A program made the position numbers and the translations under genes. Shown here piece after piece: positions 4,359 through 28,972 of a stretch of DNA of 38,247 nt. The stretch covers positions 1 through 38,247 of the forward strand of contig JAKIUF010000043.1 in assembly GCA_021647705.1 (NCBI GenBank), in the 5' to 3' direction. The stretch is from Gammaproteobacteria bacterium. GTDB taxonomy: Bacteria; Pseudomonadota; Gammaproteobacteria; SZUA-152. The notes under the pieces are model-generated. The model searched no databases. It saw only the letters and a program-made list of their open reading frames with translations, and was not told where the DNA came from. How positions within the stretch are numbered: the first letter of the stretch is position 1; the number at the start of each line of letters is the position of its first letter.

Positions 4359-4544
4359 GGCGTTGCCTGTGGTGTTCGATACTGTATCGGAATTTTCTTG
4401 GCCTATGCTTAACCCTGTTGGGGACATTACATCGGTGTTGTGTGCATGTCCGTGTTACGGAAAGCCTGATATGCTGGTCGTTGTTCCCACTTTATCGCTC
4501 CGGTCCCAAGAGCGACGATGCAACCGGCACATGTGGGTGACGCC
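4359..4544 (+). ncRNA. ssrS: 6S RNA
   Basis: A 186-nt structured stretch lies exactly between zapA and the 5-formyl-THF cyclo-ligase gene, where 6S RNA is found across gammaproteobacteria (E. coli 6S is about 184 nt). The ends can pair (GGCGTT with GACGCC). The 5' arm contains CTGTGGTGTTCG, close to the E. coli CTGAGATGTTCG. The central region has GTCCGT, a loop and ACGGAAAGCCT, matching the E. coli GGTCCGTCCGAGAAGCCT region. 6S RNA mimics an open promoter and sequesters sigma70 RNA polymerase in stationary phase. A T-run follows the 3' end (4546-4551). The exact ends are estimated to within a few bases. Confidence 0.88.
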
Positions 4545-5658: not shown

Positions 5659-7338
5659 TCAGCGAATAGAATTGAAGGCCGTCAAACTCATCATGTGTGC
5701 ATCAGTACCCAGGTCGTTATCGGGAAACAGACTACGATAGACATCACGATAATCCGTGCCATGCAAGGCAAGATAATTGAGCACTACCGTGTCCACCAAC
5801 AGGTTGACATTATTGGCCGCCACGCTGGAAGCAGTTTCTACTGAACCATCTGAGCGGAACCAGCCTATTTGCTGATGACGCTCGTCACCCAGATTGTCGC
5901 CACTAAACAGGGTAGCCTGACCACCATTGGCTGTCGGGTTATAAACCAGGAAGAAACTGCCAGCAGTGGAGGAGTTGTCACCGGTCCACACGCCTTTGCC
6001 GCGACCATCTTGAGAACCATCGATGGAACCATTGCTGGCCACGGAGCCATCGCTGAAAACGTACATCATCAATGGTGTAGGGACTCCTGCTGCGGTTCGG
6101 CGCGCAGCATATTCAAGACAAGCGCCCATGCAACGCCCGGCGCGCAGGTCACGGCGTTCACCAGCTTGGCGGTCACCCGTGTGATAATCGAAACCACCCA
6201 TGGTGATGGTACCAGCCCCGGCATAACCATCGATAACCATTTTCATGACGGCGGCGGTTTTACGGAATTCGCCTTCACCATCAAATTCAGCCTCGGTAAA
6301 TATACCGCCATTGTTATTGACGATGACCCGATCGGCAGGATCTTCGGCATTGCGATCATCAGGACTGATTTCTACACCGACGAAACGATCAGCAATATCC
6401 GCAGCGCTGAGGTAACCACAGTTCACCATCTCCCTGACCACGCTATCTGCGTCGATGCGAGCCACTTTTTTATCACTGAGGCGAGCAATGGATTCCATCA
6501 CAGCCTTGGCATCATCTTTGGTCAAGACAGCAGTGAGATCACCAGTGTCTACCATGCCGGTGACATCCGAGGGACGGTCCACCTTGGTAGGACGAACAGA
6601 AGGATCAATACTCATGGCCGGTGCCACAGAGTTGCCACCAGATTCAGAATTACGCGAGCCAATAAGAGTGACTACGCTGCCATTAGAACCTGTGCGAGCA
6701 ATACCATACATCGGGTTATGTGGATTGTTACCCGTATCGTTATCAGAGCGGGCGGGGATGACCGCGCCATTAATCAGTGAGGCGGTTCCAATACTGACTT
6801 TTTCCATAATGCCGCGCAGAAAACCGCTGTCTGAATGGAAAGGCAAACCCAGGCGAGTGTCAATGAAATCATTATTAGGGCCGCTCATGGTCGAGGCAGC
6901 ATCCACTATACCGGGCACCATATCACCGGGAATACCCATTTTACTGTAGCCTGCGGCACTGATGGGATCATTGAGATAACCACCTTGTCCACCGGCCAGC
7001 ACGTTGGAACCAACCATACTGGCACCACCCGCCAAATCAAAACAGATAAAAGGGATGTTGCCACCAGCGGTGCCCAAAGCACAATTGGGGTTGTTGGTAA
7101 ACATGGTTTTCAAATCGTCTGACAACTCCGCGTGTGCAGCACGAGGATTGGCAAACAAACTAAACAACGAACCACCAAGCGTGACACCTGTGCCCGTGAT
7201 AAAGCCCTGGCGCAGGAAATCCCGCCGCGTTACTGGTCGACTATGGTCCTGATGCAACAGAGGTGCATCGAGTGAAAGTCCGTGGCGATTCTTTTTCAAG
7301 CGTCTCGCAGTTCGGTTAACTGTTCTTTTATTAGCCAT
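5659..7338 (-). CDS. Tat-exported DUF1501-like protein
   Basis: A 559-residue protein with a twin-arginine signal: RRDFLRQG at residues 38-45, a hydrophobic stretch, and a likely cleavage site after AHA (residue 70), so it should be exported folded to the periplasm. The body is Gly/Asn-rich. Near residue 380 it has TMGGFDYHTGDRQAGERRD, and then PLMMYVFSDGSV, resembling the GxDTH and TLVVxxSEFGR region of DUF1501 proteins (alkaline-phosphatase/sulfatase-like fold), though without an exact DTH. A GAGG ribosome site precedes the ATG. It is the last gene of a three-gene minus-strand operon, 40 bp behind the dihaem LamG lipoprotein. The family assignment is tentative and the substrate is unknown. 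Confidence 0.7.
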   Translation of the reverse strand: MANKRTVNRTARRLKKNRHGLSLDAPLLHQDHSRPVTRRDFLRQGFITGTGVTLGGSLFSLFANPRAAHAELSDDLKTMFTNNPNCALGTAGGNIPFICFDLAGGASMVGSNVLAGGQGGYLNDPISAAGYSKMGIPGDMVPGIVDAASTMSGPNNDFIDTRLGLPFHSDSGFLRGIMEKVSIGTASLINGAVIPARSDNDTGNNPHNPMYGIARTGSNGSVVTLIGSRNSESGGNSVAPAMSIDPSVRPTKVDRPSDVTGMVDTGDLTAVLTKDDAKAVMESIARLSDKKVARIDADSVVREMVNCGYLSAADIADRFVGVEISPDDRNAEDPADRVIVNNNGGIFTEAEFDGEGEFRKTAAVMKMVIDGYAGAGTITMGGFDYHTGDRQAGERRDLRAGRCMGACLEYAARRTAAGVPTPLMMYVFSDGSVASNGSIDGSQDGRGKGVWTGDNSSTAGSFFLVYNPTANGGQATLFSGDNLGDERHQQIGWFRSDGSVETASSVAANNVNLLVDTVVLNYLALHGTDYRDVYRSLFPDNDLGTDAHMMSLTAFNSIR

Positions 7339-7378
7339 CGTCTTATCCTCAAATACGTCTGTTACTTGTTATGTGAGC

Positions 7379-10165
7379 CTATTGAATCATCATCACTGCA
7401 CTACCCAGGGTCGTGGTACACATCGCCTTGACCATTGCGCGGGTACGGGCAGCGTTATTGTTGCAGGCTGGATCGGCAGTACAAATCGTCAGCAAACGAT
7501 CAAACAGGTTGCCTGGGTACTCAAGGTCTGCTGGCTTACTGATTAACTCAGCTTTGAGATCTGCGCGATCCGGCATATTGGTTAAAATCACACCACCAAT
7601 ACCGACCATGTTGTCGTACAAGGCATCCACAATCTGATTTTTTGCTGCGGAATCACCTGTGCTGAAAGCAGTAGCCACATCATCGGTAAAGCCAAAACCA
7701 GAACCAAAGAAGGTGTTTCGCAAACTGGTGTCTTCCACCAGAGCATCACAATAGGCAATAGCTAGCTGGGCGACACCCATTTCGTGTGCAGCAAGGAAAC
7801 CATTAATATTCTCGTCGGCTGGTAGCTGTTGTTTGATACCGGTAACAACACCTGCGTCTTCTTTGTAATAAGTTTCCAGTACGCTGGCGAATTGTGGCAG
7901 ATAAGGATCAACACCCGTCATAACCGACATGGAATGAAGAACCTCCTCAAAAGTACGCAGACCGGTCTTAGGTACTGGAGTACCAAACACCGGCGCAATG
8001 TTGCAGTTTGGGGGACTATTCGCACTGCCACAAATCGCCGGGGTACGGCTATACTGCTTGCCGTCGAAATCTTCGAAGGTCAAAAAGAATTCGTCACTGC
8101 CTGAGCCTTTTTCCACGGCAATAATAGTACCAATAGTGGATAAAACCTGTTGACCTGTGGTGCTGTCGAAATCTGTGCCATTAATTGTGGTATCAAGATT
8201 AATGTAAGCCTGACCGCCAACGGGTTCCTTACCGTTAAGACCAATGCGCATACTTTTGATAACCGTACCACTGGGGGTGAAGTCAGGATTAAGGCTGACA
8301 AAAGTCGGCTGAGCAAACAAGTAACTGTAATCATCAAACTGGCTGGCTACAAAGTAAACAAAACATTGGTCAACCGGGCTGGTGCCCCCCTCAGGAACAC
8401 GGAAGCAGTTGGGGTCATCCATCAACCCACTGACACTGAACATGAGGAAGAATTTTTGTCCTACACCGGCTTCAAAATTTTGTTGGACCTGCTCTGGTGT
8501 CATGGCACGATTATGAATAGCTACCAGACGCAGTCTGCCTTTCCAGGGCTCGCTGAGGTCCGCTTCATTACCCATACTGAAGGCGTAGGTGGGATCCCAG
8601 TTAGCCAGATCACCCGCAGGAAGCAGAGGATCAACAGAACCCTCATCGTTGCCAATTGTGGATACATCAACACCATTCACATAAATCTTGCGGCCTTCAG
8701 CACGACTGAATGTCACCGCAACGTGCTGCTGGGTGGATTGCAGATCTTCATCCATGTCATCCGTCAGCAGGGTATTGCCATTGGGACTGTCCTCTGTGGA
8801 ACTACGATTCATGAATGCGTATCGGTACTCAGCCTGACCCAGAGTAAAGTTGCGTTCGTTAGCACCGCCTGAATAGTTGATGATGCGCGCAGGATTGTTA
8901 TCGCCTTGCGACACATTGGCAGGCACCACCCAAGCTTCGATAGAGTAAGCACCACTGCCAAGAATTTGAGTCAGCAATTTACGGCTGTCTTGTGTGGTCG
9001 CCTGTGCCTTTGCACTGCTGTCAAGAAACTCTATACCCCAGCCACCTACCCAACGGTAGTCTGTGCCTTCGTTGCCGAAGAGTTTGAGATCAAGTGGCAC
9101 ACCCACACCGCTGGTGTCTTGTATTGTGGCACCAGAACCGGCTTTGAATTCGTACAATGCGATGGTACTGGAATCATCACGAGCACCCCCGCTAGCAACA
9201 GTACCGTCAAGCAAAGCCAAAGCCTTGCTGATCTTCCAGTCAGTATCCACTGCGGTGGTGCTGATAGTATCTGCAAAAGCAACGATGGCCTGCTCCATTT
9301 CCACGGAACAGTTTTTACGGCCTTCAGTAACCGCTTGTTGCAGGGTACTGCTCAAATCCCAGCAATTGTGACCTTCGTCCATGCGTAACACCAGACGTGA
9401 ATCCCGTGGTATGTCCAGGCTGATTTTCTGACTGGTGACAATAGCATCGTAGGCGACATTTATATCGACATCAGCAAAGAAGGGCGTTTGCGGGACAGAG
9501 GCTGAATCCCTGTGACAGTTGGCACAATTGTCCACAAGCAGGGTATGCACGTCACTAAAACCAGAAGGTGCCGAAGCTGGAAAGTTTTTGCTGCTCCCAA
9601 CCTCTTTGATCGTTGGTGGAGTAAGCGTGATAACGTTAGGTTCGTTATCTATACCACCACCAGGAACGCCACCAGCAACCCAGTTACTGATATATGCCGT
9701 GGCATTCGTGGCCAAAGCGCTACAAGCACTCGCCGTGCCGCAATTGTGCCCTTCATTGATTTTGGTAATAAGTGCTGAGCTGCCCGGAACATCTCGATTA
9801 ACCAGATTGCTACTGATCATCTGGCCATAGGCAGTATTGACATCGGCGGTATCCAGAAAATAGGGAGCCTGGCTGCCGGTATTGGTGTTGTGGCAGTTTT
9901 CGCAATTACTGGCATCCAGCATCTTGCTCCAAAACTCGGTTTGGAAATTGCAAATATCTTCTATCGCGTCAGTCTCTGTAGCAACGGCGTTGCAGGCATT
10001 CCCGGTATAAAGCGCTGCGGTGCTGCCATTACCAACACCTCCCGTGACCGTAGGCTCATTGGGCACACTGTCACAAGCTGATAACAACAAACCACTGAGC
10101 AAAATAAGTGGTAACGACCATGACTGATGTTTTATACAGAGAGTTGTTCGGCCTGGAATGTTCAT
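7379..10165 (-). CDS. Dihaem-motif LamG lipoprotein
   Basis: A 928-residue lipoprotein: a signal with lipobox LLSAC (Cys31), then two tandem copies of a cytochrome-c-like unit. The first has CENCH at about 88-92 and ends in INEGHNC; the second has CANCH at about 214-218 and ends in MDEGHNC. The units share the pattern CxxCH - N - PxFxD - xNxAY - DxPxxSxLxxxxxEGHNC, showing an internal duplication. A laminin-G/concanavalin-like domain follows (about 335-560: TIALYEFKAGSG, YSIEAWVVPAN, HVAVTFS, IYVNGVDV). The C-terminal 350 residues are unassigned. A GGAG ribosome site precedes the ATG. The layout recalls planctomycete PSCyt1/LamG proteins that pair with DUF1501 partners, as happens here. An envelope redox or binding role is inferred. 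Confidence 0.75.
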   Translation of the reverse strand: MNIPGRTTLCIKHQSWSLPLILLSGLLLSACDSVPNEPTVTGGVGNGSTAALYTGNACNAVATETDAIEDICNFQTEFWSKMLDASNCENCHNTNTGSQAPYFLDTADVNTAYGQMISSNLVNRDVPGSSALITKINEGHNCGTASACSALATNATAYISNWVAGGVPGGGIDNEPNVITLTPPTIKEVGSSKNFPASAPSGFSDVHTLLVDNCANCHRDSASVPQTPFFADVDINVAYDAIVTSQKISLDIPRDSRLVLRMDEGHNCWDLSSTLQQAVTEGRKNCSVEMEQAIVAFADTISTTAVDTDWKISKALALLDGTVASGGARDDSSTIALYEFKAGSGATIQDTSGVGVPLDLKLFGNEGTDYRWVGGWGIEFLDSSAKAQATTQDSRKLLTQILGSGAYSIEAWVVPANVSQGDNNPARIINYSGGANERNFTLGQAEYRYAFMNRSSTEDSPNGNTLLTDDMDEDLQSTQQHVAVTFSRAEGRKIYVNGVDVSTIGNDEGSVDPLLPAGDLANWDPTYAFSMGNEADLSEPWKGRLRLVAIHNRAMTPEQVQQNFEAGVGQKFFLMFSVSGLMDDPNCFRVPEGGTSPVDQCFVYFVASQFDDYSYLFAQPTFVSLNPDFTPSGTVIKSMRIGLNGKEPVGGQAYINLDTTINGTDFDSTTGQQVLSTIGTIIAVEKGSGSDEFFLTFEDFDGKQYSRTPAICGSANSPPNCNIAPVFGTPVPKTGLRTFEEVLHSMSVMTGVDPYLPQFASVLETYYKEDAGVVTGIKQQLPADENINGFLAAHEMGVAQLAIAYCDALVEDTSLRNTFFGSGFGFTDDVATAFSTGDSAAKNQIVDALYDNMVGIGGVILTNMPDRADLKAELISKPADLEYPGNLFDRLLTICTADPACNNNAARTRAMVKAMCTTTLGSAVMMIQ

Positions 10166-10242
10166 TGTAATGCTCCAAAAAAAACTGTTATGGCACCCTT
10201 TAACAGCGTGACCACCAAAGAGAGATTGTACGCGTCTTGTTT

Positions 10243-11511
10243 TTAACTGCCTTTACAGAATGCTGCGGAATCGGCAAATACCTGCTTCAGCTTGTAGTCA
10301 CCCCGAAAGCCAGTGATCATGGTATCAATTTGTGCATGGTCTTCAGCGTCAATCGGTGTACGCAGGCACACCGCCTTAAAGACTTTTTCTACCTGACAGC
10401 GGGCAAAAGCATCACTGTGTGCCAATTCCCGGCCCATGGATGCAGCGCCGCTACCGCTACCTGATGTGTTATCTGCGCTATCCCAACCCAGCGCGCTGTT
10501 ACTGCCGGTGCGCCAATAATTAGCCCACTCGTCATTGGGAGTAACGTAACCACCTTCAAAGTTATTGGCGTTGATATGATATTTTTCCTGCACACGAGTA
10601 CCAGTAGGATTACCATCTTTACCGATATCGATGGAACCGGGGGCGTTGTAGACTATTTGCCCGGCATCGTAATCAGGTTCATTGCCATTCATGGGATATT
10701 CGTAGTCGTAATAAGCGAAGGCCTGAGTCAGAGGATCCATGCCATTGTGGCAACCAACACAAGCATTCATATAGATACGGCTGTCTCCACCAGGACTACG
10801 GGAAACGTCCTGACGAACACGGTCCGGACTGTAGCTGGCGTCTTTCACTTGCTCCAGATCAGTACATAAATGATTGAGCAGGGTAAAACGGAACATAGCG
10901 CGGTTGGTGCCATCCACAAAAAAAGCTTTGGCAGCAGCACGAGTGGTGAGTACACCGGCCGGTTCTATTGTCGATGAAATGGCAGACTGCGTGGTTTCCG
11001 TGAGTACCACCTGTAAGTCGGCACCGGTATCTTCCAATGCCTTGTAGTGTGCGTTGCTGTTGCTGACCAAATTTGTTGTATCGGAGCCAGTATAGAGAAT
11101 GTCATCGTAGAGAATCCGACGGAAATCGTGGCCATCACGGATTACCCCGATCACTGTCGCCGTGTAATCATTCAGCGGTGCAAACACAGTTTGCTCTTCA
11201 TTGGTCCAGGGGGTGATGAAATTTTTCAGGGTTACCTGATAAAATTCTTTACCTATGCAGTTGTCACCGCCACCATCGTTGGTAATGGCATCCATGGCCG
11301 CACCAACAGCATCGCCCGCAGTCACCTTGGCTTCCAATTGAGTCAGACAGGCAGCACTGGGGGGCACACCCGTCAGCCGGTCATGAATTCGTTTAGCCTG
11401 TTCACGCGAACCAGCCTGTACGCTACCCGCAAACGTCGCCGATAAAACCAGAGCCAGCGCAGCGCAGACCATTTTTTGTGAAATGCTTAGGGGGAAAATT
11501 TTAGTGCTCAT
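10243..11511 (-). CDS. Secreted monohaem-motif protein, DUF1592/1588-like
   Basis: A 422-residue periplasmic protein with a Sec signal (hydrophobic segment about 12-30, likely cleavage after VQA at 33). The C-terminal half has GVLTTRAAAKAF, FRFTLLNHLCTDLE and then CVGCHNGMDPLTQAFAYYDY (haem motif CxxCH at about 251-255). This resembles the CxxCHxxMDPxGFALExFD block of the DUF1592/DUF1588 families. I start at 11511 because AAGGA lies 8 nt upstream; two earlier in-frame ATGs (11520 and 11574) would put a tail in front of the signal peptide. It is the first gene of the operon, with the LamG lipoprotein 77 bp downstream. The three proteins probably act together in the envelope; the reaction is unknown. 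Confidence 0.7.
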   Translation of the reverse strand: MSTKIFPLSISQKMVCAALALVLSATFAGSVQAGSREQAKRIHDRLTGVPPSAACLTQLEAKVTAGDAVGAAMDAITNDGGGDNCIGKEFYQVTLKNFITPWTNEEQTVFAPLNDYTATVIGVIRDGHDFRRILYDDILYTGSDTTNLVSNSNAHYKALEDTGADLQVVLTETTQSAISSTIEPAGVLTTRAAAKAFFVDGTNRAMFRFTLLNHLCTDLEQVKDASYSPDRVRQDVSRSPGGDSRIYMNACVGCHNGMDPLTQAFAYYDYEYPMNGNEPDYDAGQIVYNAPGSIDIGKDGNPTGTRVQEKYHINANNFEGGYVTPNDEWANYWRTGSNSALGWDSADNTSGSGSGAASMGRELAHSDAFARCQVEKVFKAVCLRTPIDAEDHAQIDTMITGFRGDYKLKQVFADSAAFCKGS

Positions 11512-12152: not shown

Positions 12153-13340
12153 TCAAGACAACTCCCTTTTGCTGTATTCATCCGGGCCTGACAAACTCCC
12201 GGCCTTTTGACGAATAGCGGCTAATTCAAGATCAGCACCCCATTGTTGTTTCCGGTTACAAAAATCCAGTAGTGGCATAAGTTGCTCCAGCATAATATCG
12301 ATATGTGGCGTAAGCTTTTCAGAATCACCTTTGCTGAGAATACGCAGTGCGGCATCAATACTGATGCGTTTTTTCGGCGCTTGTACACTACTGTATTCAG
12401 CAGGTATCAAACGATTACCTCCAGCAGCCTGGGCACTGACTGCATATTTTTCTGCCAGTGTGAGAAACTCTTCAATGCGTTTGATGTTGTTTATTCCACG
12501 GTGACTCAGCCCTAGACTTACCGTTAATGAAGTTTGCATTTCACCCACATTAAAAAGCTGGCTGGTCACCTGTTGGCGAATGCGGTTGCAGACCTTGTGC
12601 GCTTCAGCACCCCCCAACGTGGGTGCGATGATAGCGAACCGGGTATCAGCAATGCGTGCCAGGGTGTCTTCTTTACGAATGGCGGTTTGCAGACAACCCG
12701 CCACCCCGGTCAATAGTAACTCCAGTATGGTAATACCGTATTTTGCTTTTAGCCGGTCGGCATTATCCAGCGCGATGACCAATACGGATAAGTCCTGTTG
12801 GTGACGAACAGCAAAAGCCAGATCCTGGTCACCGTGTTTAAGCAAATACCGTCGGCTGCGCACCCCGGTAAGTGCATCATCCGTGGCTTGATCCCGCAGC
12901 GCTACGGCGGTTTGCGCCAGATCTCTCGTGGTCTGATCCAGTCGTGCTTGAGCACGTACCCGTGCCAGCAACTGAGCCTTGTCAAAAGGCTTGGTAATAA
13001 AATCTGTTGCGCCCAAATCCAATGCCCGCTGCCGGGCAGCTGCATCATCTGCTGCGGTCACCATATTCACGGGAATATCATTGATACGCACATCATCATG
13101 GGCGCGAATGCGTGCAATCAGCTCGTAACCATCTAGCCGGGGCATACCTGCATCGGTGAGTATCACCTGAATTTGCTCATCGGCCAGCAGTGCTTCCCAA
13201 CCAGCTTCACCATCACTGGCTTCAACAATTTCGAATTCATTACTGAGTATTTTTTTCAATGAAACACGCACCACGCGCGAGTCATCAATAATCAACACAC
13301 GGGGTTTGTTTACAGGCAGCAGCTGTTGGTCGGCCATCAT
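12153..13340 (-). CDS. Response regulator with degenerate GGDEF domain
   Basis: A 395-residue cytosolic protein. Residues 13-130 form a receiver domain with the acidic pair IIDD (19-20), phospho-acceptor Asp63 in LTDAGMPRLDGYEL, a T in MVTAADD, and the KPF lysine (TKPFDKAQLL). Residues about 155-310 have the GGDEF fold, starting with DALTGVRSRRYL and ending with TVSLGLSHRG, but the active-site loop reads RIADTRFAII instead of R-GGDEF-x. It is therefore very unlikely to make c-di-GMP and may act as a sensor or scaffold. A C-terminal tail of about 80 residues is unassigned. The second ATG (13337) is better spaced from GGAG than the first. It is divergent from the MSHA locus, whose MshE has a c-di-GMP-binding motif. 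Confidence 0.85.
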   Translation of the reverse strand: MMADQQLLPVNKPRVLIIDDSRVVRVSLKKILSNEFEIVEASDGEAGWEALLADEQIQVILTDAGMPRLDGYELIARIRAHDDVRINDIPVNMVTAADDAAARQRALDLGATDFITKPFDKAQLLARVRAQARLDQTTRDLAQTAVALRDQATDDALTGVRSRRYLLKHGDQDLAFAVRHQQDLSVLVIALDNADRLKAKYGITILELLLTGVAGCLQTAIRKEDTLARIADTRFAIIAPTLGGAEAHKVCNRIRQQVTSQLFNVGEMQTSLTVSLGLSHRGINNIKRIEEFLTLAEKYAVSAQAAGGNRLIPAEYSSVQAPKKRISIDAALRILSKGDSEKLTPHIDIMLEQLMPLLDFCNRKQQWGADLELAAIRQKAGSLSGPDEYSKRELS

Positions 13341-13605: not shown

Positions 13606-14241
13606 ATGATCAACCAGCAGGTCAATTTGTTTCAGCCCATCTTCCGCAAGGAACGGAAACTGCTGTCGTTCAAGGTATTGACCCAGGCTTGCGCAGCTGT
13701 GGTGGTGGTATTGTTCACAATGTACGGCTGGAGTGTGCAACAAACGCAACAAATGAAAACTGATTTGGTACAACTGAAAAAACAGCAAACACAATTTTCC
13801 ACGCAATTGGCCGAAGTCAGCGATCGCTTGGCTGGAATGAAAACAGATACGGCCCCTCAATTAGCACTAACCAGCCTGGAACAGGAATTAGCCGCCCGTC
13901 AAAAAGTCGTTGCTGCTCTGAGACGAGCAAAAGACAGTTATACACATGGCGTCTCAAATTATCTGGAGAGTTTTTCCCGTCAGGCTCCCAAGGGAGTATG
14001 GCTTACCGGTTTTAGCGTACAGGCTGGTGGTGAAAACCTGGTGATTCGCGGCAGATCTTTGCAGGCAGCATTGGTGCCAACATTTTTACAACAACTCTCC
14101 AGTGAAAGTGCATTGAGTGGTACAGAATTTGGCTTGCTGCAAATTCAGCGTGAAAAACCGAATACCCGTTTTGTTGATTTCACCGTATACACCGGCACAC
14201 AACCACCACAGACCGGCACCCTGATGGAGACATCACCATGA
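13606..14241 (+). CDS. MSHA biogenesis PilN-like inner-membrane protein
   Basis: A 211-residue bitopic protein with PilN layout: a short cytoplasmic N-terminus containing INQQVNLFQP (the conserved NLF/NLY motif that in PilN docks into the actin-like PilM/MshI partner), one transmembrane helix (about 25-45, QACAAVVVVLFTMYGW), a coiled coil (about 45-115), and a periplasmic alpha/beta domain (VWLTGFSVQAGGENLVIRG). In MSHA operons this is the MshI2/PilN-type subunit of the inner-membrane alignment complex. It is the first gene of the plus-strand pilus locus, and its last four bases overlap the next start (ATGA). Its expected partner MshI is not adjacent but lies 15 kb downstream. Confidence 0.82.
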   Translation: MINQQVNLFQPIFRKERKLLSFKVLTQACAAVVVVLFTMYGWSVQQTQQMKTDLVQLKKQQTQFSTQLAEVSDRLAGMKTDTAPQLALTSLEQELAARQKVVAALRRAKDSYTHGVSNYLESFSRQAPKGVWLTGFSVQAGGENLVIRGRSLQAALVPTFLQQLSSESALSGTEFGLLQIQREKPNTRFVDFTVYTGTQPPQTGTLMETSP

Positions 14242-14921
14242 AAAACCGTTTTGCCGCATGGGGAGAGCGCTTTGAGGCTTTTTCGTTACGTGAACGGAGC
14301 TTGATTGCAGCAAGCATTATTGTAGTGATGTTTCTATTTTGGGACACCTTGTTATTGAGCCCACAGGAAATTCAGCAAAAAAAAATTGTTGTCGAGATGT
14401 ATAACACCAATCAACAAACCGAAGCAGTTGCCGAAAAAATTAAGGAAATGTCGGCAGCATTGCGAGGCAGCCAAGTCACACATATCAATGCCCGAGTCAA
14501 TGAATTACAAACACTGTTGGGAAAATTAAAACAACAGCAGAAAGACCTGACTATCGAATTTATCCAACCGGTGCAAATGGCGGGCGTGTTGCGTGACATG
14601 CTGCATGCCGAAAGTGGACTGGTGTTAACAAGCCTGGAAAGCCTGGGTGTACAGCCATTGTTTCCCACAGAAGGGGACAACAAAACAAAAAATGAAAAAA
14701 AGGGCACTCGCACACAGCAACCGGAAATCTACAAACATGGCTTGCGTATTGTGTTTGAAGGTAATTATTTCAAGACATTGAATTATTTACGTGCGCTGGA
14801 AGCCATGCCTTGGAGCCTGTACTGGGACAATGTGGAATACAGAGTCACAAAATACCCAAAAGCCAGCGTGGTCATTACGGTACACACACTGAGCCTCCAC
14901 GAGGGCTGGATTGGTGTGTAA
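14238..14921 (+). CDS. mshJ: MSHA biogenesis protein MshJ (PilO-like)
   Basis: A 227-residue bitopic inner-membrane protein of the PilO/GspM type. A basic N-terminus (RFAAWGERFEAFSLRERSLI) leads to one transmembrane helix (about 25-45), then a coiled coil (about 50-110) and a periplasmic ferredoxin-like domain (YKHGLRIVFEGNYFKTLNYL, then LEAMPWSLYWDNVEYRV). FEGxYFxTLxYLxxLE is characteristic of MshJ. It pairs with the PilN-like protein upstream to form the platform linking the cytoplasmic motor to the secretin. It overlaps both neighbours, so it is translationally coupled. Confidence 0.85.
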   Translation: MKNRFAAWGERFEAFSLRERSLIAASIIVVMFLFWDTLLLSPQEIQQKKIVVEMYNTNQQTEAVAEKIKEMSAALRGSQVTHINARVNELQTLLGKLKQQQKDLTIEFIQPVQMAGVLRDMLHAESGLVLTSLESLGVQPLFPTEGDNKTKNEKKGTRTQQPEIYKHGLRIVFEGNYFKTLNYLRALEAMPWSLYWDNVEYRVTKYPKASVVITVHTLSLHEGWIGV

Positions 14922-15288
14922 TCTTTTAAAAAAATCTCAAGTCATAATCATTGTAACGACAATGCTATTACTGATTATGCCATTGCAAGCGGCCCTGAAA
15001 GACCCTACACGTCCACCCACGGCAACAACAGCAATTTCTTCGGTGCCAGAAAAAACTCAGCGACCACGCTGGGTGCTGACATCAACATTGGTATCGGCGC
15101 AAAGACGCACGGCGGTGATTAATGACACTGTGGTATCCCATGGTGATCGCATTAATGGTGCAAAGGTCATAAATATTCAACCTACCGCAGTCCGGCTACG
15201 CATCGGCAGACGAGAAATTACAGTAATGATATTGAAAAAGAATGTTAAGTCATTGTCTCAGATGACCTCATCGAGACAAGGGAAATAA
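14914..15288 (+). CDS. mshK: MSHA biogenesis protein MshK (PilP-like)
   Basis: A 124-residue exported protein: signal peptide (VIIIVTTMLLLIMPLQAA) followed at once by LKDPTRPP, the hallmark of MshK and PilP-type pilotins. A beta-rich domain follows (WVLTSTLVSAQRRTAVINDTVV, DRINGAKVINIQPTAVRL), as in the secretin-contacting part of PilP and GspC. I start at GTG 14914, which is 8 nt after GAGGG; TTG 14911 is the alternative. It overlaps the end of mshJ by 8 bp. It probably connects the inner-membrane platform with the MshL secretin encoded immediately downstream. Confidence 0.8.
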   Translation: MCNLLKKSQVIIIVTTMLLLIMPLQAALKDPTRPPTATTAISSVPEKTQRPRWVLTSTLVSAQRRTAVINDTVVSHGDRINGAKVINIQPTAVRLRIGRREITVMILKKNVKSLSQMTSSRQGK

Positions 15289-15290
15289 TA

Positions 15291-17081
15291 ATGAAAACTG
15301 GAAAAAAAATTAAACAACATTTTATATTGATAATTATTATCTTCACATTATTGCTGGCATCATGCTCAAGCAAGCCGCCCCGAGGTGGCAGTGTTGCAGA
15401 TGAAATCAATAAAAACCTGCAAAAAATCAACCAGCAGGCTCCCATAAAAAATAAACCGGGAACATTGCCACCGGAAGTATCTGCTGCATTGATGCCTCCA
15501 TTGAATATTGAATTCTCAGGTATGAATCAAACTCCACTGGAGCGCAGGTTTGATATTACCGTTGATCGTGTCAATGCACGTTCATTTTTTATGAGTCTGG
15601 TAAAAGATACACCTTACAACATGGTGACGTATCCGGGCGTTACAGGGAAAATATCCCTGAGCATGAAAAATGTCACGATTAATGAAGCCATGGAAACTGT
15701 GCGCAATGTTTATGGTTATGAATTTAATCGTACTAAAAATGGCTATGAAGTATTATCTGCCAAATTACGTTCAAAAATATTTACCATCGATTATCTCAAT
15801 GTGAAACGCTCAGGATTATCGAATGTACGTGTAAGCTCCGGACGAGTTCAAACATCACAAAAGAATCGCTCACAATCAGGCACGGGAAGAACCGATGGTA
15901 ACTTCGGTACAAATAATAGTAATGGATCGAATAGAAGCACAGCGGTTTCTGGCAGTCAGGTAAGCACCCGCTCCGAATCCAATTTCTGGACAGAGTTGAC
16001 AGTGGCATTGCAGGCCATCATTGGTAGTGAAGAAGGGCGTAAAGTTATTGTGAATGCGCAGTCAGGCATTGTTGTGGTACGTGCCATGCCAGCGGAATTA
16101 CGTGCGGTATCGAAATATTTACAAACGACTCAGAGCGTCATTGAGCGACAGGTTATTCTCGAAGCAAAAATTCTGGAGGTGGAACTCAGTGATGGTTTTC
16201 AGTCAGGCGTTAACTGGTCTGCGCTAGGCAAAGGTAAAAACGGGGACAGTATCATTGCTGGACAATTTGGTGGGTCCAGCGTATTTACTTCGGGTGCCAG
16301 CAACTTACAAGGGCAAACCGATGCCCTGAATCCAGCCGATTTATCTGGCCTGCGCTCAAACGTGGCTTCGGCCTTTGGCGGCATGTTTGCCATGAGCTTC
16401 GATATTGGTGATTTCACTGGTTTCCTGGAGTTTCTTGAAACACAGGGTGATGTGCATGTGCTGTCCAGCCCTCGGGTATCTACCGTCAATAATCAAAAAG
16501 CGGTTATTAAAGTAGGCACTGATGAGTTTTTTGTCACCGATGTAAACACTAATACCAATACTTCATTAGGTGGTACCAGTGCCAATCAATCTGTCAACGT
16601 TGAATTAACCCCATTTTTTTCAGGCGTGGCACTGGACGTTATCCCACAGATCAGCGAAGACGGTATGGTGACTTTGCATATTCATCCATCCGTCAGTGAA
16701 GTAACCGAACGCGTCAAACAAATCAGCCTGTCTTCAAGCAGCCAGCTTAATGTACCACTGGCTTTGAGCATGATCAGAGAGTCTGACAGTATTGTGCGTG
16801 CGCGCAGTGGCCAGGTAGTCGTCATTGGTGGTTTGATGCAAAACCAGACCAGAGATAAAAAAAGCTCAGTGCCTTTATTGGGTGATCTACCATTGATAGG
16901 TGGTTTGTTTCGGCATACTCAGAAAGTAACCCGCAAGAGTGAATTAGTCATTTTATTACGACCGATTGTTGTCAATAGCGATAATGTCTGGGCTGATGAA
17001 ATACAAAAAGTAACAACACGTTTTGGCAAAATTACCCAGCTCAATTCACCGTCAATTGTTAATGATACACCTGTAGAATAA
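15291..17081 (+). CDS. mshL: MSHA secretin MshL
   Basis: A 596-residue outer-membrane secretin lipoprotein. The signal has lipobox LASC (Cys25). N-terminal STN/N0-like and N-domains follow (about 80-300: RRFDITVDRVNARSFFMSLV, NVTINEAMETVRNVYGYEF), interrupted by a Ser/Asn/Gly-rich linker at about 180-230. The C-terminal secretin domain (about 340-575) includes LEFLETQGDVHVLSSPRVST, LDVIPQISEDGMVTLHIHPS, and the terminal VVVIGGLMQNQTRDKKSSVP with LLGDLPLIGGLF and SELVILLRPIVV. It forms the ring through which the pilus crosses the outer membrane. An AAGGGA ribosome site precedes the ATG, 2 bp after the mshK stop. Confidence 0.95.
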   Translation: MKTGKKIKQHFILIIIIFTLLLASCSSKPPRGGSVADEINKNLQKINQQAPIKNKPGTLPPEVSAALMPPLNIEFSGMNQTPLERRFDITVDRVNARSFFMSLVKDTPYNMVTYPGVTGKISLSMKNVTINEAMETVRNVYGYEFNRTKNGYEVLSAKLRSKIFTIDYLNVKRSGLSNVRVSSGRVQTSQKNRSQSGTGRTDGNFGTNNSNGSNRSTAVSGSQVSTRSESNFWTELTVALQAIIGSEEGRKVIVNAQSGIVVVRAMPAELRAVSKYLQTTQSVIERQVILEAKILEVELSDGFQSGVNWSALGKGKNGDSIIAGQFGGSSVFTSGASNLQGQTDALNPADLSGLRSNVASAFGGMFAMSFDIGDFTGFLEFLETQGDVHVLSSPRVSTVNNQKAVIKVGTDEFFVTDVNTNTNTSLGGTSANQSVNVELTPFFSGVALDVIPQISEDGMVTLHIHPSVSEVTERVKQISLSSSSQLNVPLALSMIRESDSIVRARSGQVVVIGGLMQNQTRDKKSSVPLLGDLPLIGGLFRHTQKVTRKSELVILLRPIVVNSDNVWADEIQKVTTRFGKITQLNSPSIVNDTPVE

Positions 17082-17105
17082 ATATAAAGGCGGCGGTGAT
17101 AATTT

Positions 17106-18011
17106 ATGTACCTGGAACACTTTGACATGCAGGAAATGCCTTTCGCTATTACGCCGGATACCAGTTACTTCTACAGCTATGGGAGTTATCAAGAGGCATT
17201 GAATGTTTTACTGGTCGCATTACGCAGTGGTGAAGGTTTTATAAAAATCAGCGGCGAAGTGGGCACAGGAAAAACATTATTATGTCGTAAAATATTGAAT
17301 ATTCTGGATGATAGTTTTATTACTGCCTGGCTTCCCAACCCCTGTTTGACGCCTGCGGGTTTACGCATGGCATTGGCTGATGAGCTGGATATCAAATATG
17401 CCCGAAACATGGGCCAGCATCGCATTTTATCATTGATCAATGATCGCCTGATCGAATTAAATACCGAAGGAAAACAAGTGGTTTTATTCTTGGACGAAGC
17501 ACAGGCTTTGCCGGATGATTCTATGGAAGCTTTGCGCCTGTTAACCAATTTAGAAAGCGAAAAAAGCAAACTGCTTCAAGTCGTATTATTTGGACAGCCC
17601 GAACTGGATGAGCGGCTGGCTCAAAATAAACTGCGCCAGCTACGTCAACGCATTACTTTCTCTCAGGAGTTGGAAACCATCGATATTAACGGTATCGAAG
17701 GTTATCTGGCACATCGATTATTGGTTGCTGGCTACCACGGTAAACCGCTGTTTAATAAAAATACTGTGGAAGGTTTATATCATATCAGCCAGGGTGTGCC
17801 ACGGGTAATTAATGTATTGGCGCACAAAATGTTGATGGTGGCCTATGGTCAGGGCGCGTCTAATATTACCTTGCAACATTTACAGCTGGCCGCAGAAGAC
17901 ACTGATGGCACAACACCACTACCTGCTTCCGGCTTGACACGTATGGGCACAACCATTGTTTCTGCCATGAGTGCAGCAGCAGCCGCCGCGGCAATAAGCC
18001 TGGGAGCCTGA
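17106..18011 (+). CDS. mshM: MSHA biogenesis ATPase MshM (ExeA-like)
   Basis: A 301-residue AAA+ ATPase of the ExeA/MshM group. It starts with YLEHFDMQEMPFAITPDTSYFY, typical of the family. Walker A is GEVGTGKT (about residues 50-57), Walker B is VVLFLDEAQ (about 126-134), and LLTNLESEKSKLLQVVLFGQ contains the sensor 1 region. Arginine-finger and sensor 2 elements lie in LRQLRQRITF and GVPRVINVLAHKML. A weak Ala-rich hydrophobic C-terminus (MSAAAAAAAISLGA) ends the protein. ExeA-type ATPases help assemble the secretin. The gene sits between mshL and mshN, as in Vibrio. Confidence 0.92.
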   Translation: MYLEHFDMQEMPFAITPDTSYFYSYGSYQEALNVLLVALRSGEGFIKISGEVGTGKTLLCRKILNILDDSFITAWLPNPCLTPAGLRMALADELDIKYARNMGQHRILSLINDRLIELNTEGKQVVLFLDEAQALPDDSMEALRLLTNLESEKSKLLQVVLFGQPELDERLAQNKLRQLRQRITFSQELETIDINGIEGYLAHRLLVAGYHGKPLFNKNTVEGLYHISQGVPRVINVLAHKMLMVAYGQGASNITLQHLQLAAEDTDGTTPLPASGLTRMGTTIVSAMSAAAAAAAISLGA

Positions 18012-18014
18012 TAC

Positions 18015-19127
18015 ATGAGCCTGATTAATCAAATGTTGCGCGATCTTGAACACCGTCGTACTTCAGAAATAGCATCATCGCCCCTGGGAGGGCTCAGTGC
18101 CAGTGGCTCAATAATACAACCGGCGGAAGTTTCAACTCATTATATGACCCTGACTATTGTCGTGGCAGTGATTTTTATAAGTGGCGTGATGGTGGCATAT
18201 TTATTGGGTGACCAGCAACAAGCCGTGGCAACAGAAAATATGGGGGCCAATATATTTCAAAAAGAAGCACCCGGTTTTATCACAGACACTGCGCCAGAAA
18301 ATACAAAAATAACCACATTGCCTGCAATGGCCAACCCTAATTCCACGGTGATTGATAGAAAAAAAACTATCGAAACTGTGATAAAAAAACCTGTTGTGAA
18401 AAAAATTACACCTGTGAACATCACACCGGATGTTGAAAATATAACCGAAACAACATCTGTCAGCAGAAAACAAAATATCAATAAAATAATCCGCCCACTG
18501 ACTAATGAACAACAATCACAGTTGGCCTTTCAGCGTGCAATACAGATGTTATCTCGTAATAATTCACAGGATGCACAACTGGCTCTGGAAGAAGCATTGT
18601 CTTTTTCACCGGCTCATCTTCGGGCTCGTGAAACACTGGCGGCAATTTTGTTAAATAGCGGTCGTATAAGCGAGGCTGCAAACAGCTTGAACGAAGGCCT
18701 GCATTTAATGCCGGATGCCGCGCCACTGGCAAAACTGTATGCCCGTATTCTGGTGGACCAGGGTGATATTGTTAACGCTGTCGCAGTATTGGAACGGGCA
18801 CGTCCAGCCGTGGCTGCTGATTCGGAATATTATGCCTTGTTGGCAGCCTTGTATCAGCAATTGGAGAAACATGCGCAAGCGGCGCAAGTCTATCGGCAAA
18901 TTTTATTACGGAACCCTGGGGCAGCGCACTGGTGGATGGGGCTGGCTTTAGCACAGGAAGCCATGGGTGAAACTACACACGCATTGGATGCTTTTCAGCG
19001 GGCGCAACGTGCTGGTGGCCTGAGTAATGAAGTATTGAAATATATACAGGCACGCATCGTGGCATTAACACCTGTAGCACCTTTGCGTACAGATGCTAAC
19101 CATGTGTTGGACGAGTTTGAGGAATAA
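18015..19127 (+). CDS. mshN: MSHA biogenesis TPR protein MshN
   Basis: A 370-residue bitopic protein. The cytoplasmic start SLINQMLRDLEHRR is the signature of MshN. One transmembrane helix follows (about 44-64), then a low-complexity Lys/Thr/Val linker (about 70-155) and a C-terminal tetratricopeptide array (about 165-355: AFQRAIQMLSRNNSQDAQLA, NSLNEGLHLMPDAAPLAKLY, AAQVYRQILLRNPGAAHWWM). TPR repeats mediate protein-protein contacts in the periplasm, probably with the secretin or platform. It starts 3 bp after mshM and ends 2 bp before mshE, so it is part of the same transcript. Confidence 0.9.
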   Translation: MSLINQMLRDLEHRRTSEIASSPLGGLSASGSIIQPAEVSTHYMTLTIVVAVIFISGVMVAYLLGDQQQAVATENMGANIFQKEAPGFITDTAPENTKITTLPAMANPNSTVIDRKKTIETVIKKPVVKKITPVNITPDVENITETTSVSRKQNINKIIRPLTNEQQSQLAFQRAIQMLSRNNSQDAQLALEEALSFSPAHLRARETLAAILLNSGRISEAANSLNEGLHLMPDAAPLAKLYARILVDQGDIVNAVAVLERARPAVAADSEYYALLAALYQQLEKHAQAAQVYRQILLRNPGAAHWWMGLALAQEAMGETTHALDAFQRAQRAGGLSNEVLKYIQARIVALTPVAPLRTDANHVLDEFEE

Positions 19128-19129
19128 AC

Positions 19130-20836
19130 ATGTCAGCACAGATAAAACGTATTCGTCTGGGTGATTTGCTGGTTGAGCATAAGCTTATTTCTGAAGGCCA
19201 ATTGATTGCGGCATTGGATGAGCAAAAGAAATCTGGCCATAAATTGGGTCGGGTCCTGATTGAGAATGGTTATGTAAAAGAGGATGACGTACTTAATTTA
19301 TTGTCTCGTCAACTCAATGTTCCTTTTGTCGATTTGAGCATTTTTGAGTTCAAACCGGAAATAGTGAATAAAATTCCAGAAACTGCGGCACGTCGATTCC
19401 GAGCACTGGCACTGGAAGACACACCGGATGGCTTATTGGTTGGCATGGCTGACCCGACCAATATTTTTGCCTACGATGACTTGGTACGAGTAATAAAAGG
19501 CCCGATCAAAGTCGCTGTAGTAAAAGAAGGTGACTTGATCGCCGCCATCGACAAGGTTTACCAACACGGTACTGAAATACAAAGCCTTGCCACAGAAATT
19601 GGCGAAGACATGGAGGAAAATGTCTTTGATCTGGCATCATTAGATAAAATTGTCAGTCAGTCTGATGCGCCAGTAGTCCGTTTGATTGAAACAATATTTG
19701 AAGAGGCCATGGCAACCAATGCCTCTGACATTCACATCGAACCCGACGAAACTGTGTTACGCATTCGTCGCCGCATTGATGGTGTTTTATACGAACAGGT
19801 GATGGATGAAAAAGCCATTGTGCCTGCGTTGGTATCCCGCCTGAAATTGATGGCGAGTCTGGATATTGCCGAACGACGTTTACCACAGGATGGTCGTTTT
19901 AATATCAAATTAAAAAACAAAGCTGTAGACGTACGTTTTTCCACCATGCCAACACAGTATGGTGAAGCCGTGGTAATGCGTCTGCTGGATCACTCTACAG
20001 GTGTGCAAGGTCTGAACCAGATTGGTTTGTCGGACGATATCCGAGTCCGCCTGGAAAATGCCATTAACCGACCGCATGGTTTATTGTTGGTCACGGGCCC
20101 GACCGGTAGTGGTAAAACCACAACGCTGTATGCGGCATTAAATGAATTAAACACACCGGAAAAAAAGATTATCACCGTAGAAGATCCGGTGGAGTATCGT
20201 TTACCCCGTATCAATCAGGTACAAGTCAATCAAAAAGTGGGGCTGGATTTCGCACGGGTATTGCGCAGCGCATTGCGACAGGACCCGGATATTATTCTGG
20301 TTGGTGAGATTCGCGACCAGGAAACCGCAGAAATTGCCTTGCGTGCTTCAATTACCGGCCATCTGGTGATGTCAACATTGCATACCAATGATGCCATCAG
20401 TACCGCATTACGACTTATCGATATGGGCGTGGAAGGTTTTTTGGTAGCCTCAGCAGTGCATGCCATTGTTGCACAACGTCTGGTACGCCGTATCTGTGAT
20501 AAATGTACGACTGCCCATGCCCTGGATGCAGGTCAACTGGCTTGGTTGCAAGTGGTAGTGGGTGAAGAGCGTGCCGCAGAAATGACGTTTCAACATGGTA
20601 CTGGCTGTCCTGCTTGCGGGCATACCGGTTATCACGGTCGTGCCGCCGTACACGAAATGCTGGATATTACCAGCGAGCTTGCCGATGCCTTGCGTCATCA
20701 GGATTATACCAAATTCAAAAAACAGGCATTAGCACAAGAGCAGTTTACTCCGCTATTGGAAAATAGTCTGATTCTGGCTGAACAAGGTGTCACTTCCATC
20801 GATGAAGTGATCCGTATCAGTGGCTGGATTGATTGA
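19130..20836 (+). CDS. mshE: MSHA extension ATPase MshE
   Basis: A 568-residue hexameric secretion ATPase of the GspE/PilB family that powers pilus extension from the cytoplasmic side. The N-terminal MshEN domain carries the two consecutive c-di-GMP-binding motifs: RLGDLLVEHKLISEGQLIAAL (about 9-29) and LGRVLIENGYVKEDDVLNLL (about 39-58). The ATPase core has Walker A GPTGSGKT (about 323-330), the Asp box ITVEDPVEYRL, Walker B IILVGEIRDQETA and the His box STLHTNDA. A four-Cys zinc site is present (CDKC near 455 and CPAC near 492). All key residues look intact, so binding of c-di-GMP is expected from the family. It lies 2 bp behind mshN. Confidence 0.95.
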   Translation: MSAQIKRIRLGDLLVEHKLISEGQLIAALDEQKKSGHKLGRVLIENGYVKEDDVLNLLSRQLNVPFVDLSIFEFKPEIVNKIPETAARRFRALALEDTPDGLLVGMADPTNIFAYDDLVRVIKGPIKVAVVKEGDLIAAIDKVYQHGTEIQSLATEIGEDMEENVFDLASLDKIVSQSDAPVVRLIETIFEEAMATNASDIHIEPDETVLRIRRRIDGVLYEQVMDEKAIVPALVSRLKLMASLDIAERRLPQDGRFNIKLKNKAVDVRFSTMPTQYGEAVVMRLLDHSTGVQGLNQIGLSDDIRVRLENAINRPHGLLLVTGPTGSGKTTTLYAALNELNTPEKKIITVEDPVEYRLPRINQVQVNQKVGLDFARVLRSALRQDPDIILVGEIRDQETAEIALRASITGHLVMSTLHTNDAISTALRLIDMGVEGFLVASAVHAIVAQRLVRRICDKCTTAHALDAGQLAWLQVVVGEERAAEMTFQHGTGCPACGHTGYHGRAAVHEMLDITSELADALRHQDYTKFKKQALAQEQFTPLLENSLILAEQGVTSIDEVIRISGWID

Positions 20837-20865
20837 GCATTAACGGGAATTTAACGGATTAATTT

Positions 20866-22086: not shown

Positions 22087-22220
22087 ATAATCGATATATA
22101 GGTAAAGAATTTTTTCGGAAAGACCGATAGTTACAAAGAATGGAGCCACGTCAGAGCATTGTGGGTACAACCATCCCGAACCATTGACACATTTAAAGTA
22201 GATAAAGCTGGAGAAGTGAC

Positions 22221-22655
22221 ATGAAGAAACAAAGTGGTTTTACCCTCATTGAGCTAGTGATGGTTATTGTGATTTTGGGAATTCTGGCGGCAACAGCCTT
22301 ACCAAAATTTGCCGATTTATCTACCCGGGCAGAGGGTGCATCTATCGCCGGGGCACGCGGCGCAGTTTCCTCTGCGGCAGCTATTGCCCATGCAGCATTT
22401 TTGATTGACAACACAACAGCAACCATTGAAGGCACTGCTGTAACGTATCAAAATGGTTATCCCAATGCAGCCACCATTGTCAATCTGGCGGGCCTTAACG
22501 TCGGTGTGGGGTTGGATTTTCAGGGATCAACCGTTCCTGGTCCACCTGCTGTATTAACCATTACCAATGGCTCAGCTACCTGTAGCTTTACTTATACAGA
22601 AGCAGTTTCCCCTGCCGCTCCGGTTATCAGCACTGTTCTCGGCGCGGGTTGTTAA
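22221..22655 (+). CDS. mshA: MSHA-type major pilin, MshA-like
   Basis: A 144-residue type IVa prepilin. A short basic leader MKKQSG is cut before FTLIELVMVIVILGILAATA, with the essential Glu at +5. The mature domain is small, and a Cys pair near the C-terminus (SATCSFTY and GAGC) likely closes the D-loop. EGTAVTYQNGYPNAATI resembles the conserved EGxxVxxxYGYPNA region of MshA pilins. A strong GGAGAAG ribosome site precedes the ATG, and a robust rho-independent terminator follows 60 bp after the stop, both fitting a highly expressed major subunit. I call it MshA rather than MshB on these grounds; the separate pilin at 30163 is the other candidate. Confidence 0.85.
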   Translation: MKKQSGFTLIELVMVIVILGILAATALPKFADLSTRAEGASIAGARGAVSSAAAIAHAAFLIDNTTATIEGTAVTYQNGYPNAATIVNLAGLNVGVGLDFQGSTVPGPPAVLTITNGSATCSFTYTEAVSPAAPVISTVLGAGC

Positions 22656-22715
22656 TTAAACGACCTGGTTTCTCACCAGGGCAACACTGCCCATATTGTG
22701 AAAACCATTGGAAAC

Positions 22716-22748
22716 AAGCCAGGTTGCGTAAGCTACCTGGCTTTTTTT
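22716..22748 (+). terminator. Rho-independent terminator after the major pilin
   Basis: The inverted repeat AAGCCAGGT / ACCTGGCTT with a 10-nt loop is followed directly by a run of seven T. It lies between the mshA stop and the GTG of the mshQ-like gene, so it probably limits transcription into the downstream half of the locus. A smaller hairpin (CTGGT / ACCAG) precedes it at about 22664-22678. Confidence 0.85.
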
Positions 22749-22761
22749 CTGGATAATTATT

Positions 22762-28913: not shown

Positions 28914-28972
28914 TGATGGGTGCTGCATTTCGGCCACACTTTTTCTACACAACGGAGACGGAGCCTACTTCC

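Follow-up and report, generated by a model that had tools for sequence, protein, structure and literature searches.

What do three exported proteins, encoded in close succession on one strand of a gammaproteobacterial contig and bearing haem-attachment motifs, a LamG domain and a twin-arginine leader, do together, and with which other genes do they work? The question is raised by positions 5659 to 11511 of a 38,247-nucleotide stretch of DNA (contig JAKIUF010000043.1 of GenBank assembly GCA_021647705.1, Gammaproteobacteria bacterium; the whole stretch is called the window below), in which genes C, B and A follow one another on the minus strand with gaps of 77 bases (C to B) and 40 bases (B to A). 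We infer, with a probability of about 0.45, that C-B-A is a haem-bearing, possibly polysaccharide-binding sub-assembly of an orphan Agl/Glt-type envelope machine. The genes and their parts are the following.

5659..7338, minus strand: gene A, an open reading frame for a protein of 559 amino acids exported by twin-arginine translocation (Tat), without a Pfam family above cut-off.
7201..7230, minus strand: twin-arginine motif TRRDFLRQGF, gene A residues 37–46, from the sequence and alignment.
7379..10165, minus strand: gene B, a lipoprotein of 928 amino acids that combines a pair of cytochrome-like units, LamG and a helical domain at the C-terminus.
10073..10084, minus strand: lipobox LSAC of gene B (Cys31), from the sequence (LLSAC-D), Cys31 being nearly invariant among 16 aligned sequences.
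9677..9973, minus strand: cytochrome-like unit 1 of B, about residues 65–163, CENCH...EGHNC, from the alignment, model helices and a profile match to the PSCyt3-type N-terminal unit.
9269..9565, minus strand: cytochrome-like unit 2 of B, about residues 201–299, CANCH...EGHNC, from the alignment, motif counts and model helices.
8483..8971, minus strand: LamG, a concanavalin A (ConA)-like domain of B, residues 399–561, from PF13385 and the model fold.
7382..7960, minus strand: C-terminal helical domain of B, about residues 736–928, without an assigned family, from model helices.
10243..11511, minus strand: gene C, extending to 11574 if an upstream TTG is used, Sec-exported and DUF1592/DUF1588/DUF1585-like.
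10738..10761, minus strand: CVGCHNGM of C, a putative haem-attachment motif with the following Met, from the sequence and alignment.

Much of what a preliminary description of this DNA had said was borne out. Gene B was described as a lipoprotein with two tandem CxxCH units and a LamG domain, and it holds the lipobox LLSAC-D, the motifs CENCH and CANCH, and a match to PF13385 (Laminin_G_3) at 60.4 bits (cut-off 27.6, E 2.9e-16); the EGHNC said to close both units is present in its sequence. Gene C, described as a Sec-exported CxxCHxxMDP protein, has a Sec-type leader and CVGCHNGMDP. The single operon that was proposed is compatible with the order and strand of C-B-A, which are conserved across loci.

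For the survey of conservation, 57 genomes (the window's own and relatives) were scanned for the three genes. C was found in 23 of the 57, A in 24 and B in 25, and all 23 C-holders contained both A and B; the rows beyond 23 were a contig-edge fragment of A (G024; G and L numbers denote genomes and loci) and two partial matches to B (G018, G045). A profile of A was scanned against one genome per species (84,980 species), giving at least 591 stretches, of which at least 578 were confirmed; the best 80 of these 578, and hence near relatives only, are the loci for which counts out of 80 are given, and several come from genomes of the 57-genome set. The order C-B-A on one strand was kept in 73 of 80 loci, which are all those whose contig reaches into C, and the remaining 7 begin inside B or A at a contig end. 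Among the 73, C is cut by the contig start in three, B lies in two reading frames in one, and an over-long frame for B overlaps C in one. Nearly all of the 80 are Gammaproteobacteria (Microbulbifer, Alteromonas, Paraglaciecola, Glaciecola, Colwellia, Rheinheimera, Thiodiazotropha, Chromatiales and others), the exceptions in taxon label being L119 and L138 (only Pseudomonadota/Proteobacteria) and L107 (Polarisedimenticolaceae). Within a survey of 370 gammaproteobacterial genomes, those with A span 30 families, and 49 of the 54 positive rows show a single match; a phylum survey of 397 genomes found A in 8, each of them a member of the window's class, and the 20 non-matching rows listed were likewise of that class, absence elsewhere not being claimed. 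Co-occurrence of the three genes had been set beforehand as a refutation test of the preliminary description, and the counts of 23/23 and 73/80 uphold it; C-B-A is almost certainly one functional unit. Two copies of the trio occur in one genome (L030 and L031, G016), the L031 copy of B being without the first CxxCH unit, and in L032:1559-4367 (G006) B is split over two overlapping reading frames, perhaps through a frameshift or an assembly error.

Protein C scored below the Pfam gathering scores for the PSCyt3/PSD families, with sub-threshold matches in the right order to DUF1588 (PF07627, 14.3 versus 27 bits) and DUF1585 (PF07624, 16.4 versus 25.8 bits). An alignment of five PSCyt3-type proteins (DUF1592/DUF1588/DUF1585) served as the reference for profile comparison, in which unrelated protein pairs scored 17–25. 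Against this reference the C profile scored 100 (E 2.6e-12, probability 97.6%), with E values of 2e-10 and 2.8e-12 from other C alignments (18 and 88 rows, respectively), and as controls 40 column-shuffles scored at most 26.6 and the reversed profile 21. Segments of C were compared with the maxima of 25 shuffles, and each exceeded its maximum (34–245, 42 versus 29; 180–300, 55 versus 21; 300–422, 38 versus 23). Both cysteines, the histidine and the methionine of CVGCHNGM are invariant in 18 aligned sequences, a single CxxCH is present in 72 of 73 C homologues, and C carries the CxxCHxxM[DE] motif of PSCyt3/PSD proteins. These sequence comparisons leave little doubt that C represents a diverged DUF1592/DUF1588/DUF1585 ("PSCyt3") protein. 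By phmmer, no PDB relative of C or B was found at E up to 1.

For protein B, Cys214, Cys217, His218, His266 and Cys268 of unit 2 are invariant (16 aligned), and CxxCH followed by HNC is present in both units in 64 of 73 B proteins of at least 700 amino acids, the other nine having HNC in one of two units (eight proteins) or a single unit (one protein). The HNC starts 47–52 residues past CxxCH in 130 of 137 cases. Pfam cytochrome models remained below cut-off for B (Cytochrom_C, 13.3 versus 21.3 bits). Compared with the PSCyt3-type profile, the first 320 residues scored 58 (shuffles ≤23), unit 1 without the lipobox leader (residues 60–185) scored 35 (shuffles ≤20), unit 2 scored 42 over 27 columns around CxxCH (shuffles ≤20), and the middle of the protein scored 20 (shuffles 23). 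Unit 1 is probably related to the N-terminal haem unit of PSCyt3-type proteins, the His of EGHNC is a likely distal ligand of the two putative haems of B, and the CxxCH units of both B and C would, judged by their motifs, bind c-type haem. A candidate match of the C-terminus of B to that of PSCyt3 proteins was withdrawn after the whole-B score of 56 had been traced to the N-terminal unit including the lipobox leader. Models of A and B were built from 16-row alignments. The B model (predicted local distance difference test (pLDDT) 65.5, predicted template modelling score (pTM) 0.43) contains two four-helix units (~65–163 and ~201–299), a ConA-like domain and a C-terminal helical domain, and matched ConA-like folds with Z up to 17.4 (VIA list, model residues 47–681), its fold neighbours including lectin-like binding domains of clostridial neurotoxins, sialidases and an arabinanase. 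No function was taken from these neighbours, the ConA-like fold being too common to inform.

Protein A matched no family above cut-off in Pfam or NCBIfam scans. It had been described as a Tat-signal DUF1501-like protein, of which the first half holds: its N-terminus is the twin-arginine leader RPVTRRDFLRQGF, and RRxFL is present in 80/80 A homologues. DUF1501 (PF07394, gathering 27 bits) gave no Pfam match at E up to 1. Against 14 DUF1501 proteins A scored 38.5, from A-profile columns 50–118 with the Tat leader included; the match vanished without the leader (16.8–19.2, not above controls, of which two sets had unexplained outliers of 214 and 138), the C-terminal half scored 18.8 with a shuffle maximum of 21.6, and a smaller DUF1501 set gave probabilities of 2.5–3.6%. 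The GGxD and DH motifs, invariant in the 14 DUF1501 members, are not kept: the GGxD place, mapped by eye, is N or S in 96/96 A sequences, and no DH occurs past residue 370 in 95/96. Invariant in the 96 are D101, H207, D384, H386, D430 and D454, and by eye GGYDYH and N-G...N-P-H in A recall FDTH and N-G...N-x-H of DUF1501. A LIM-kinase match in the PDB (phmmer, E 0.65) was at chance level and was discarded. Foldseek of the A model gave nothing at E≤0.001, the first rows for this weak model being phosphoglycerate mutases, alkaline phosphatases and sulfatases, and VIA gave Z up to 8.7, the 50 rows listed being phosphatase, sulfatase, iPGM, NPP and phosphoethanolamine/phosphoglycerol transferase entries, which we take to belong to the alkaline phosphatase superfamily. 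Since Z near 8 can be background, the fold likeness is only suggestive, and on the model the chances that A is a member of this superfamily are about even. The link to planctomycete-type cytochrome clusters, which the preliminary description had drawn for the set, was therefore kept for C (DUF1592-DUF1588-DUF1585, three segments above shuffles), kept moderately for the first unit of B (35 versus 20) and not shown for A, of which only the Tat-leader region aligns; the hidden Markov model check against Pfam that it had proposed gave no DUF1501 for A and sub-threshold DUF1588/DUF1585 for C, after which profile comparison supported C.

The wider context lay outside the preliminary description and was seen in the flanks of relatives, not in the window: an HZS_alpha-like cytochrome, outer-membrane barrels, tetratricopeptide repeat (TPR) genes and, in fewer loci, ExbB/ExbD/AgmX-type genes. 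Clustering of the flanks of the 80 loci gave one gene family divergent from C in 55/80, and where the contig left room this HZS_alpha-like gene lay within 1.5 kb of C in 55/63 loci. Its representative is a lipoprotein with a PD40 propeller and HZS_alpha (PF18582, 61.6 bits, cut-off 26.6), two CxxCH are present in 51/54 of these proteins, and the score for the hydrazine_alpha NCBIfam equivalog is far below cut-off (49.3 versus 800 bits). Past this gene follow an SH3/outer-membrane-barrel gene (55/80 loci) and a TIGR04565 barrel gene (35/80). In the 370-genome survey, after weak matches had been dropped (A 2, HZS_alpha 8, TPR960 3), A was found in 52 genomes, the HZS_alpha-like gene in 54, both in 48 and neither in 312, so that 48 of the 58 genomes holding either hold both; 36 of these 48 have the pair no more than 12 kb apart, and the remaining 12 have it on different contigs or at a greater distance. 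Fisher's test for the pair gave 1e-48 with shared ancestry ignored, and correlations of 0.70–0.89 were obtained between the pairwise distances for A, B, C and HZS_alpha, values that shared descent alone could produce. We consider it very likely that C-B-A works with the HZS_alpha/outer-membrane-protein set. In a trio-less genome (G010, L163:5629-13088), HZS_alpha-like, SH3-barrel, TIGR04565 barrel and thioredoxin-like genes and p174 stand in one run.

On the other side of the trio, 18 of the 57 loci with room have p174 and TPR960 downstream of A in the same orientation, a TPR lipoprotein gene was found in 17/80 loci and ExbB in 11/80, the 8-kb flank often ending before these genes, and TPR960 is present in 50 of the 52 A-bearing genomes among the 370. 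In a Rheinheimera locus (L137), ExbB-ExbD-ExbD-AgmX-like genes stand directly ahead of C-B-A; the TonB-like protein there, the one protein tested, has the AgmX/PglI C-terminal domain (52 bits, cut-off 40) and reaches 28.2 of 650 bits for the GltG equivalog. NCBIfam matches of the TPR genes were all below cut-off, the GltE equivalog at 30.7 of 225 bits. The whole set is in one cluster in G037; in G014 the opposite strand carries a TonB-like and two ExbD genes some 1.6 kb away from A; five genomes of the window's family (one of them trio-less) have the HZS_alpha/barrel/p174/TPR genes as a separate cluster; and of the two p174/TPR sets in the window's genome, one includes ExbB/ExbD/ExbD/TonB-like genes. 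As given in parts of PMC3169522, gammaproteobacteria possess an aglRQS+gltCDEG core of unknown function, an orphan machine also by passages of PMC3858216, in which Agl-Glt and Agl-Nfs act on slime or spore-coat polymer (extracellular polysaccharide) and need proton-motive force. From linkage and co-occurrence, C-B-A is rather probably part of an Agl/Glt-type machine.

Several observations weigh against placing C-B-A in such a machine as a haem-bearing sub-assembly. No HZS_alpha gene stands beside C in 8/63 loci, namely L137, where the ExbB-ExbD-ExbD-TonB-like run stands instead, and seven loci of the window's genus or family, for six of which an HZS_alpha-like gene was found elsewhere in the genome. 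Four genomes hold A only (G000, G024 by its contig-edge fragment, G058, G111) and six HZS_alpha only (G078, G134, G165, G198, G262, G355), and shared ancestry explains part of the co-occurrence. In 39 of the 57 loci with room, A is not followed by the p174/TPR960 run, and 40 genomes that lack A carry TPR960-type genes, so that the C-B-A module is dispensable to the machine. In the window's own genome HZS_alpha-like and TIGR04565 genes were not found, a result from which absence cannot be judged, part of that genome reading N, and the neighbours of C-B-A in the window are a response-regulator/GGDEF gene and an MSHA-type pilus cluster rather than machine genes. Among identified recurring neighbours there were no polysaccharide genes, the flanks not having been scanned systematically for them. 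Protein A as DUF1501 was withdrawn, the score of ~38 coming from the Tat-leader region only, and its model is poor (pLDDT 56.7, pTM 0.63, 16-row alignment); with these corrections our confidence in the alkaline phosphatase placement of A, and slightly that in the preferred reading as a whole, was reduced. The C-terminus of B, in the co-linear place, scored 21.0 against that of PSCyt3 (shuffles 20.2–20.6), which is not above controls; this lowered to a possibility the idea that B and C are a split form of one ancestral protein, which is tentatively retained from the sequences.

Should C-B-A be a sub-assembly of this machine, it could work as follows. The trio, by C and the first haem unit of B, would derive from PSCyt3-type cytochromes with a LamG lipoprotein added; B would sit in the outer membrane, holding C and A and gripping polysaccharide through LamG; A may bind or edit a sulfate- or phosphate-type ester carried by that polymer; electrons would travel through the haems of B, C and the HZS_alpha-like protein to serve a redox step, either on the polymer or on the assembly; and the ExbB/ExbD machine would supply proton-motive force, by analogy with the Agl motor that moves slime or spore-coat polymer in Myxococcus. 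That the trio acts on surface polysaccharide is conceivable at somewhat less than even odds. More doubtful is the wider proposal that the standalone gammaproteobacterial Agl/Glt-type core is a redox-coupled surface machine, with the HZS_alpha-like propeller and C-B-A as cargo, in which proton-motive force and electron transfer act jointly on cell-surface polysaccharide.

A classical PSCyt-type pair is present in the window's genome at another locus (L050:4457-10997, contig C78), beside flavinylation genes: a lipoprotein with PSD4 (DUF1592, 30.7 bits) and PSCyt3 (24.5 bits; 30.2 with neighbours in frame) adjoins a DUF1501 protein (55.8 bits), and after the pair come genes for a redoxin, for a DUF3570 protein that contains two SGAS motifs and for ApbE. 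In the flanks of C-B-A, ApbE was found in 18/80 loci, and inside the module's cluster in 7 Microbulbifer loci (also in G037). The [ST]GA[ST] flavinylation site is not conserved in A (5/80), B (7/79) or C (5/73), nor in the linked genes examined; in L162, L100 and L083 ApbE stands inside the module cluster, yet no examined cluster protein has a conserved [ST]GA[ST].

These genes bear on an alternative in which C-B-A is a stand-alone periplasmic or outer-membrane electron-transfer module, respiratory or extracellular, with the TPR/ExbB genes as incidental neighbours. It would account for five CxxCH sites over B, C and the HZS_alpha-like neighbour, for ApbE in the flanks, and for the company of the classical PSCyt3/DUF1501 pair, DUF3570 and ApbE being tied to flavin-based extracytosolic electron transfer in the parts of PMC8238504 concerned. 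Yet TPR960 accompanies A almost throughout (50/52), LamG would be odd in a pure electron conduit, and no porin-cytochrome conduit or quinol oxidase was met among identified recurring neighbours, no systematic search having been made; we regard this alternative as unlikely. If the haems are not haems at all, the trio could be a structural or adhesive lipoprotein complex of the cell surface whose cysteines, those of CxxCH included, form disulfides or bind some other metal, as the missed Pfam cut-offs (Cytochrom_C 13.3 versus 21.3 bits) and several further conserved cysteines would allow, but the regular CxxCH-to-HNC spacing (mostly 47–52 residues, both units, 64/73 B), the four-helix arrangement in the model and the homology of C to PSCyt3 proteins make this very improbable.

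Polysaccharide could also be the substrate in another sense, that of nutritional degradation by a sulfatase/phosphatase-like and oxidative set, as suspected for Verrucomicrobia PSCyt clusters. LamG in B and the sulfatases and phosphatases among the fold neighbours of the weak A model fit this, as do the passages of PMC5615132 that place sulfatase genes near pfam13385, glycoside hydrolase and PSCyt genes. Against it, the identified members of the 14 recurring flank clusters (≥6 loci; two clusters unidentified) include no glycoside hydrolase or sulfatase, one copy per genome (49/54 rows), rather than many substrate-specific ones, was the usual state, A keeps neither GGxD (N/S in 96/96) nor the C-terminal DH (95/96), and the trio is also found in chemosynthetic symbionts such as Thiodiazotropha. 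We hold degradation to be distinctly unlikely, and return to the sub-assembly of an Agl/Glt-type envelope machine as the preferred reading.

In the open-licence literature searched, including parts of PMC12758564, neither the trio nor its link to the machine is described, no paper was found on the combination of DUF1501 with LamG, and no description was met of an envelope motor that has a haem sub-assembly of its own. Each part is known or akin to a known family; their arrangement (PSCyt3-like C, haem/LamG B, Tat protein A, HZS_alpha-like partner and envelope machine) was not met in that literature. In passages of PMC5615132, PSCyt clusters are frequent in some Verrucomicrobia genomes, near carbohydrate-binding modules and of unknown function. 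If the link is true, the questions posed by PSCyt clusters and by the Agl/Glt core converge in marine genera that can be grown in culture (Microbulbifer, Alteromonas, Paraglaciecola, Rheinheimera), where the genes are mostly in single copy.

Elsewhere in the window, a response-regulator and GGDEF gene (12153–13340) adjoins C and is kept there in six same-genus loci (L013–L017, L019). Type IV pilus biogenesis genes (PilN, secretin and PilM by Pfam) occupy 13606–29941, a cluster that we read as MSHA-type, and within it 22762–26649 encodes a protein of 1295 amino acids with LamG and DUF6701. A 6S RNA (RF00013, 75.7 bits) lies at 4361–4543, at the start of the 5-formyltetrahydrofolate cyclo-ligase gene region.

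Compared with known systems, C shares with PSCyt3-type proteins the DUF1592/1588/1585 stretch, CxxCH..MDP, export and a Tat-exported partner gene nearby, and differs from them in having neither N-terminal haem unit nor lipobox, the haem-motif units being on the separate LamG lipoprotein B; the partner A, unlike their DUF1501 partner, is below the Pfam cut-off, with profile likeness confined to the leader region. A resembles DUF1501 proteins in its Tat signal, the GG motif near the N-terminus, the GGYDYH/GFDTH-like motif seen by eye and alkaline-phosphatase-like fold neighbours, and departs from them in lacking a Pfam match, a profile match past the leader, the D of GGxD and, in 95/96, the DH pair. 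The HZS_alpha-like neighbour has the propeller repeats, HZS_alpha middle domain and two CxxCH (51/54) of hydrazine synthase alpha, whereas its score is far below the cut-off of that equivalog. With the DUF3570/ApbE/thioredoxin-like clusters in the relevant parts of PMC8238504, the classical pair of L050 has ApbE, redoxin and DUF3570 in common, whereas A, B and C are without a conserved [ST]GA[ST]. In the main text of PMC3169522 the words 'cytochrome' and 'LamG' are absent for the Agl/Glt core, unlike the haem-motif/LamG trio here; in likeness to Agl/Glt (and Nfs) of Myxococcus and to the standalone gammaproteobacterial core, the linked loci jointly hold ExbB, two ExbD, a protein with an AgmX/PglI C-terminal domain, TPR proteins and TIGR04565 barrels.

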